NCBI GenBank assembly: GCA_016218575.1
Contig: JACRDN010000014.1
Coordinates: 1 to 64,000 of the forward strand
Length of the DNA: 64,000 bases
Direction: 5' to 3'
Source of the DNA: Elusimicrobiota bacterium
GTDB taxonomy: Bacteria > Elusimicrobiota > Elusimicrobia > UBA1565 > UBA9628
The notes beneath the pieces were generated by a model. The model saw only the letters and a list, made by a program, of their open reading frames with translations, did not search any database and was not told the DNA's origin. Positions 15,371-16,684 of the stretch are shown piece after piece (the first letter of the stretch is position 1; each line of letters opens with the position of its first letter). The translations under genes and the position numbers were made by a program.

Positions 15371-15401
15371 TATTGAAATTTAATTTCAATAAGGATATAA
15401 T
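15371..15401 (+). promoter_or_regulatory. Promoter with 21-bp palindromic operator
   Basis: TTGAAA (15373-15378), 17-bp spacer and TATAAT (15396-15401). A perfect 10-1-10 palindrome, TATTGAAATT-T-AATTTCAATA, covers 15371-15391 and so overlaps the -35 hexamer, as a repressor operator would. Predicted transcription begins near 15408, about 5 bases before the ATG at 15413. Downstream lies the CDF transporter gene, so a metal-responsive repressor is a fair guess. Confidence 0.72.
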
Positions 15402-15412
15402 ACACCGAGCTT

Positions 15413-16684
15413 ATGATTAAGGGCTCGCAATGGAATAATATGACCAACTGGCAGGCCCAGATTCGAGTTGATTTCGAGGCGCGAGGAGGGAGCAATGCCG
15501 CAGCGCATTGTGACCGACGAGCAACGAAGAAATCGGCCGAAGATGAGCCTGCCCGAAGGGCCGGGGCACTTTTGGGCTGCGACTTCGTCTCTCGTCACTC
15601 ACATACCGCTGCGGGTATGCTCGCTCCTCGATCCTCGTCTCGCTCCAAAATTGCCCCGGCCAGTTGGTCATATTATTTCATTGCGAGCCCTAAGCGCGCC
15701 GCCGCCTTGTTTCTCGCCCTGCTCACGGCCTGGGCGGCGCCCGCTCGCGCGCTGGCATCTCTCCCGGCTCGAGATATTCCTCGCCGTCTCTACTCCATAA
15801 TTCCGGAATCATCTCCGGCCCGCGCCATTCTACAGCCCGCCCGATTGGCGAGACCGGGACTCCTTGACCAAATCCGCGCCTACCCGAGTCATGTCATCCA
15901 TGCTGCGGCAGAAGAGGCTCCTGAAAGCCTCCATGGGCGGGCGGGGGCGCTTTTCGGCGAAGAGAGCAGATTGCGGGTCGCGGGGAGCGCGCTCCCCACG
16001 GGTTTAAGCCCGGCGCTTGCGCTACCCCTGTCCGTGCCGGCCCAACGGAAGGCCTATGTCGCGGCCTTAAAGAAGGTGGTAGGCTTGTCTTTCGCCATGG
16101 CGGGGGTGGAATTGGCGGGCAGCGCCGAAACGGAGAGCGGCTCTCTCTGGGCCGACGCCCTTCATCGGCTGGTGGACGCGTCCGTTGACCTTGGTTCGCT
16201 TATATCGAATTCCCTGGCCTTGGGCCATCCGGAATGGAGAGAGTCCAAAAGGGAAATGATCGACGCGGGGGTGGGGTTTTCCAGCGCCGCGATCATCTTG
16301 ACCATGGCGATTCTCACCGCAGCCCAGGCCGTGGAGCGCCTTTACGCCCCGGAGCCGCTCATGGGCTGGGCCACCATGCTTTTGGCTTTCGCAGGGCTCG
16401 GCGCCCAGCTCGGCTCGATCTACTTCCTCTATCCCCACCGCGAGGCCAACCAGAGCCTCAAAACGGCGTTCCTCCATGCGTTCGTGGACGCCCTGGGTTC
16501 CTTGGGAATCATCGCGGCATCCGCGGCGCAACTGGGTCTAGGCTGGTCCCTGGCCGACCCCATGGTCACCTTGGGCATCGTGGGGCTCATCCTGCGCACG
16601 GCCATCCCCCGGGCCATCGAGTCGGGCAAAGCCCTCTGGGCGGCTACAGCTTCCGGCCCATCACGGGGCAGTAAAGGCCCTTGA
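15413..16684 (+). CDS. CDF cation-efflux-like protein with in-frame palindromic insertion
   Basis: Cation diffusion facilitator-like membrane protein. The transmembrane region (about residues 210-410) carries two metal-site HxxxD motifs typical of CDF: DALHRLVDAS in TM2 and FLHAFVDALGS in TM5. The usual cytoplasmic C-terminal domain is absent. The original start is ATG at 15413, but a 270-bp element plus a TAA duplication was inserted after codon 3. Removing it restores M-I-K-R-A-A-A-L-F-L, a normal signal peptide. The insertion adds 91 codons without breaking the frame, so the signal sequence now begins near residue 94 unless translation restarts inside the element. Export of Zn or a similar ion is inferred. 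Confidence 0.72.
   Translation: MIKGSQWNNMTNWQAQIRVDFEARGGSNAAAHCDRRATKKSAEDEPARRAGALLGCDFVSRHSHTAAGMLAPRSSSRSKIAPASWSYYFIASPKRAAALFLALLTAWAAPARALASLPARDIPRRLYSIIPESSPARAILQPARLARPGLLDQIRAYPSHVIHAAAEEAPESLHGRAGALFGEESRLRVAGSALPTGLSPALALPLSVPAQRKAYVAALKKVVGLSFAMAGVELAGSAETESGSLWADALHRLVDASVDLGSLISNSLALGHPEWRESKREMIDAGVGFSSAAIILTMAILTAAQAVERLYAPEPLMGWATMLLAFAGLGAQLGSIYFLYPHREANQSLKTAFLHAFVDALGSLGIIAASAAQLGLGWSLADPMVTLGIVGLILRTAIPRAIESGKALWAATASGPSRGSKGP
15421..15690. mobile_element. 270-bp palindromic MITE-like element with TAA target duplication
   Basis: The element begins GGGCTCGCAATG and ends in the inverted complement; the terminal inverted repeats are 32 bp with one mismatch. Inner sequence continues as an imperfect inverted repeat almost to the centre, where CCCGAAGGG forms the tip, so a single strand could fold into one long hairpin. 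TAA flanks both ends (15418-15420 and 15691-15693). It encodes no transposase. Its length is a multiple of three and at least one frame on each strand is largely open, much like Rickettsia palindromic elements. A second copy lies at 1-159. Confidence 0.88.

Follow-up and report, generated by a model that had tools for sequence, protein, structure and literature searches.

A phylum-wide family of palindromic MITEs in Elusimicrobiota, placed mainly at gene ends and once in frame in a cation-efflux gene

An in-frame palindrome in a cation-efflux gene

The stretch of DNA analysed here, a window of 64,000 nucleotides from the start of one contig of an Elusimicrobiota bacterium, carries a CDF-family cation-efflux gene that is interrupted near its start by a palindromic element (Table 1). 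The product of the open reading frame matches Pfam Cation_efflux (E = 4e-21), and its ancestral signal peptide is now displaced to about residue 94. The 32-bp ends of the element, GGGCTCGCAATGGAATAATATGACCAACTGGC and GGGCTCGCAATGAAATAATATGACCAACTGGC, mismatch at one position, and the element strand has a folding energy of -168 kcal/mol versus -94 in shuffles (z = -14.8). A Pfam search with its longest antisense ORF gave no match. The initial annotation, made from the letters alone, had described a 270-bp element with 32-bp terminal inverted repeats (TIRs) carrying one mismatch and TAA on both sides; our sequence check agrees, as it does for everything that annotation had read directly.

In silico deletion of the element and one TAA restores the signal peptide MIKRAAALFLALLTAWAAPARALA on the CDF-family gene. 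The joined flanks read MIKRAAALFLALLTAWAAPARALASLPA, a typical signal peptide before the Cation_efflux domain, and the reconstructed pre-insertion site is ATGATTAAGCGCGCC. The insertion hit two adjacent codons, for Ile and Lys (ATT AAG), within the signal-peptide n-region. Element plus duplication amount to 273 bp, or 91 codons with no stop, so that the frame stays open, and the predicted peptide of the element contains GSQWNNMTNWQAQIR. The proposal of an in-frame insertion with a recoverable ancestral gene is thus borne out by the joined flanks. The CDF homologues of relatives likewise open with a signal peptide and do not have the inserted segment, contrary to what the initial annotation had named as refuting a mobile insertion; no close CDF orthologue turned up among the relatives searched (best 35-37% identity), and the empty site rests on these homologues together with the joined flanks.

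Table 1. Features of the element and its surroundings in the window
Feature	Position	Strand	Basis or remark
Second copy of the window element, truncated at contig end	1..159	+	Target-site duplication TCA, 160-162
Sigma-70-like promoter TTGAAA-17-TATAAT, upstream of ancestral start	15373..15401	+	11/12 matches; 0.3 expected in shuffles
ORF of 423 aa, CDF cation-efflux gene	15413..16684	+	91-codon insert after codon 2
Left target-site duplication TAA	15418..15420	n/a	
Palindromic element, subfamily A, 270 bp	15421..15690	+	Terminal repeats, copy comparison
Left terminal inverted repeat	15421..15452	+	Its first 30 bases pair as one half of the terminal stem
Left arm of conserved three-stem fold	15451..15552	+	Alignment columns 31-134
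Right arm of conserved three-stem fold	15560..15660	+	Alignment columns 163-268
In-frame ATG within element, possible re-start	15617..15619	+	Start picked by codon-model gene caller
Right terminal inverted repeat	15659..15690	-	
Right target-site duplication TAA	15691..15693	n/a	
Rest of ancestral signal peptide (RAAALFLALLTAWAAPARALA)	15694..15757	+	

The promoter ends 11 bases 5' of the ATG at 15413, and the message would therefore be nearly leaderless. Translation re-start at the ATG at 15617 is possible from the sequence, with a product that would begin MLAPR; no Shine-Dalgarno sequence is visible for this start. The 273-bp step and a single stop-free frame left the CDF frame open, and the protein, if made at all, would most likely carry a tolerated N-terminal extension from either the near-leaderless ATG or the internal one, with secretion of the extended protein probably impaired. 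At the opening of the contig, where the second, truncated copy lies, a minus-strand gene (147-743) terminates 13 bases into that copy.

Copies, distribution and a putative mobiliser

The genome of the window (2.82 Mb in 23 contigs) contains approximately 35 copies of the element in three TIR subfamilies, with six full copies at 97-100% identity; the near-identity of these copies suggests recent mobility. Subfamily A (end GGGCTCGCAATG) measures 270 bp, subfamily B (end GGCCCTGTCAAGT) 268 bp, with some copies of 325-328 bp that hold an extra inner palindrome, and subfamily C (end GGGGTCGCGTCAT) 271 bp. Despite their differing ends, all three share the motif AATAATATGA. Fully bounded copies in this genome are flanked by identical triplets, TAA, TTA and once TCA, the exception being one B copy with TGA and TAA. 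Further copies with 3-bp duplications, which the initial annotation had named as the mark of a mobile element, are therefore present. Short, bounded by terminal inverted repeats, devoid of a transposase gene and dispersed in many copies with target-site duplications, the element is a real MITE.

Several variants depart from the standard architecture. Three B copies of 325-328 bp, at L101, L103 and L104 (contigs C19, C23 and C20 of the window's genome, G000), carry the extra palindrome of ~57-60 bp, and that of L101 differs from those of L103 and L104. A 46-bp miniature (G000:C22:40090-40135) consists of two subfamily-B ends face to face and nothing else, while a 40-bp remnant with the right end only (L096:3004-3046; G000:C14:133603-133646) sits between TTA duplications where a radical-SAM gene has its stop codon. 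Read outward, the outer end of subfamily B (for example L097:2993-3260) gives TTGACAGGGCC; each tip thus carries a perfect -35 hexamer, from which hybrid promoters with the flanks could arise.

Of 117 nearby genomes, 38 contain relatives of the element; in a sample of 295 genomes from across the phylum the number is 54, four of them outside the class, and the named database records with the element core are Elusimicrobia MAGs. The ends differ between genomes yet are always self-complementary and of the form GGNNYYGTNA, and the duplications are again TAA or TTA. In G051, an order-level relative, one TIR (GGGCTCGCAATGAA) bounds size classes of ~160, 225, 268 and 383 bp on many contigs, which suggests a mobilisation common to several genera. 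Searches of plasmid and phage collections with the element gave no match. The initial annotation knew of no similar element in this lineage, and a limited literature search agrees, in that it returned no earlier description of an element of this kind for Elusimicrobiota.

Across the 45 bounded copies from this genome and its relatives, the flanks are identical 3-bp TNA triplets, nearly always TAA or TTA. A preference for TNA targets, with a 3-bp repeat, is reported for the IS1031 group, and ISLrh has the TIR GAACCTGTCTAGTA and a TGA duplication (PMC12016507). The subfamily B end GGCCCTGTCAAGTA is identical to the ISLrh TIR at 11 of 14 positions; the other ends share G(G/A)NNYYGT only. The element resembles IS5-family, IS1031-group insertion sequences and their derived MITEs in its 3-bp TNA duplication and, in part, in a TIR of the type G(G/A)NN(C/T)TGT..., and IS5-type ISs with TWA duplications do occur in Elusimicrobiota. 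Two of these are an IS of 831 bp with PF13340 and PF01609, TTA duplications and the ends GAAACTGTTCACAA, and one of 949 bp with a TAA duplication and the ends GAGCCTATCCCAG. In contrast to such ISs, the element has no transposase gene and is nearly fully palindromic over 270 bp with internal arms, and the genome yielded no autonomous partner for it.

A search of the window's genome for PF01609 transposases returned none. In five genomes, no TIR pairs were found at IS-like spacing, the pattern matching MITE-sized pairs of 46-383 bp only. The surroundings of 50 transposase loci in relatives yielded only two IS5-type elements with TWA duplications and different ends, plus a single weak pair, with TCA, that has 3 mismatches; a set of 20 transposase loci gave no autonomous IS with the TIRs of the element. 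The assemblies are incomplete, and a partner may be missing from them. Since the element has no DDE transposase of the IS1031 group and the window's genome yielded none, we describe the element as IS1031-like in behaviour and do not file it as a member of IS5/IS1031. The TNA duplications and terminal repeats fit an IS1031-group enzyme and the search found none in the genome, and we therefore infer the mobiliser: an IS5-family, IS1031-group-like transposase that would move the element in trans by cutting YTAAR-like targets.

Insertion sites at stop codons and gene ends

Empty sites were rebuilt for the 45 bounded copies, with genes taken from a codon-model caller, some of whose calls have Pfam support. 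The duplicated triplet is a stop codon in 23 cases; 14 insertions are intergenic and eight lie within called genes, mostly near the 3' end. Among non-genic insertions, 21 of 35 are on stop codons versus 7.2 expected, or 9.4 when sites are weighted by the preferred target context of Y before and R after TAA (P<5e-5). The null comprised all noncoding or stop TAA/TTA sites of the same stretches, and none of 20,000 simulations reached the observed number. The significance of the excess comes from the relatives (14 stop insertions versus 4.0 expected); in the window's genome alone, the context-weighted comparison of seven with 5.4 expected is not significant (P = 0.19). One-sided copies at contig ends add five stop cases among approximately 13.

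Copies are over-represented at convergent junctions (odds ratio 3.3, p = 0.004) and under-represented at divergent ones (p = 0.02). Five insertions fall at convergent pairs with overlapping stops, BacA/amidase and T2SSE/cytidylate kinase among them, where both genes end in the triplet. What keeps both intact is either the duplication of the triplet or a TAG made up of TA and the first G of the element. Conserved families that flank insertions include BacA, Amidase_2, T2SSE, cytidylate kinase, TopA, an RsmD-type methyltransferase, SCO1, Jag, MnmE and radical SAM. In the jag-mnmE operon of the window's genome (L105:3004-3285, contig C6), the element follows jag, whose stop is supplied by the duplication, and an ATG in its terminal repeat can now start MnmE (MTRPL-TDTIAA...); in G006 and G045 the mnmE start is apparently GTG or TTG.

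These sites point to a mode of persistence in which the target triplet can itself be a stop codon and the first base of the element is G, such that a stop would be rebuilt on insertion as TAA or TGA in the duplication or as TA|G across the junction. Since the stop is rebuilt, copies would survive mainly at gene ends, including those between convergent genes with overlapping stops. Target preference together with survival where nothing breaks is the simplest reading of the placement. Overall, we assign a probability of about 0.85 to the reading of the feature as a MITE of a phylum-wide Elusimicrobiota family with an IS1031-like mobiliser, surviving mainly at gene ends by stop rebuilding.

Conserved fold, inserted peptide and related systems

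Twenty divergent copies share a common fold of a terminal stem and two local arms, with 95.5% of cells paired and compensatory double changes in 53 of 82 pairs. Its covariation score of 0.480 compares with 0.155 for shuffles and falls to 0.05-0.08 on sliding. Taken singly, most sequences have a long hairpin as their best fold; across copies, pairing is kept at 93.9% in the local arms versus 80.9% in that alternative. An unlikely extension would make the element, with a three-stem fold under selection, a ready-made gene end throughout the phylum that rebuilds the stop, separates convergent genes previously lacking any gap, processes or stabilises both mRNA 3' ends and sometimes provides the start codon of the next gene, as it may for mnmE in contig C6. 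A related proposal, which we also consider unlikely, would have the element act as a structured RNA or DNA device with a regulatory role, recruited to gene ends for 3'-end processing or as a two-way transcription barrier between convergent genes, and for 5' leader control at the CDF locus. The paired cells, double changes, covariation and better-kept local arms speak for it, as does the excess at gene ends and convergent pairs. However, no U-tract terminator was found at the element, the common pairs show no clear strand preference (38 G-U versus 23 A-C cells), and an Rfam search returned no family at the gathering threshold, its only sub-threshold hit (isrO, E = 0.72) falling outside the element. 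Tolerance alone explains the placement, and the covariation may stem from selection on RNA or DNA structure or from template-switch correction of imperfect palindromes.

The initial annotation had drawn a parallel with Rickettsia palindromic elements (RPEs), which insert in frame in genes (PMC2229807, PMC10969869). One part of this parallel gained a second case. The copy at C18:41259-41528 splits a TPR/outer-membrane-type protein in its signal-peptide n-region, between MAIFDKPK and TDFFRVIAVGLLLFLLQPRLAAQ, in the same orientation and frame and with the same 91-residue peptide as the window copy, and several orthologues of this protein start with normal signal peptides that lack the insert. Both sites read NNT AAG, the form that the TAAG target takes in coding DNA. 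As a general description the parallel did not stand, in that the family does not live in frame within genes, as the stop-codon (23/45) and intergenic (14) insertions attest. A long ORF across a copy in G038:C22, considered as a further in-frame case, was rejected as an apparently spurious GC-rich frame.

A protein-coding palindrome of the Rickettsia type, which genes would keep as translated peptide while selection acts on its frame and length, is a very improbable account of the element. The two independent n-region insertions speak for it, as does a frame that most full-length subfamily-A copies, and the internally deleted one, keep free of stops. Against it, most copies lie outside genes, the main B and C copies and most relatives have stops in this frame, and shuffling the element leaves some frame fully open in approximately one case in five. 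The elements measure 259-286 bp, often a number not divisible by three, which makes the 273-bp step incidental. Codon-model scores are negative for the inserts, at -1.6 and -2.4 in the window versus +43 for the rest of the gene, and at -3.2 versus +72 for C18. We conclude that the inserted peptide reflects tolerance and not a coding function; the in-frame event at the window is genuine but secondary to the stop-codon pattern. An assembly artefact, or a CDF gene that was already a dead pseudogene, is more improbable again: many contigs of this metagenome-type assembly do end within copies, so that the repeat does confuse assembly, but the window copy is spanned, a few bases set it apart from each of the others, its TAA duplications match, its removal restores a clean signal peptide, and over the CDF part 330 codons remain open and score well as coding sequence.

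The closest parallels found to the Elusimicrobiota MITE are the Coxiella QMITEs and the RPEs. Compared by description only, RPEs are similarly palindromic and dispersed, and the element matches them in being open in frame inside genes in two cases with the same peptide. In contrast to RPEs of 105-146 bp, it measures ~270 bp, has a clear TNA duplication, occupies stop codons and gene ends as opposed to gene interiors, and keeps its frame open in one subfamily only; where RPEs recur in frame in genes with a conserved peptide, it clearly extends a gene product in two of the 45 bounded insertions, those of the window and C18. For QMITE1 and QMITE2 of Coxiella burnetii, the sections of PMC5896051 considered here describe annotated functional genes that are all hit at the 3' end, and in several of which the element supplies just the stop codon, much as seen here. 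QMITE2 differs in its 7-9 bp duplications and the QMITEs are unrelated in sequence, and those same sections mention neither a TNA mechanism nor overlapping convergent stops. The Chunjie MITE of Geobacter uraniireducens (cited in PMC10969869), likened here by title and citation only, is also a MITE of ~235 bp in tens of copies, from an unrelated lineage; its title reports insertion in an operon without disturbing it. New in this MITE are the range across a whole phylum, the niche at stop codons and the conservation of a three-stem fold.

The family offers a testable rule for how a transposon persists in a gene-dense genome, namely that the target triplet is a stop codon regenerated on insertion. 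Its phylum-wide set of copies would also allow two questions to be taken apart, namely selection versus template-switch mutation as the source of covariation in palindromes, and the tolerance of signal peptides for in-frame palindrome insertions. Furthermore, Elusimicrobiota annotations may hold false N-terminal or C-terminal extensions and contig breaks that are due to this element.
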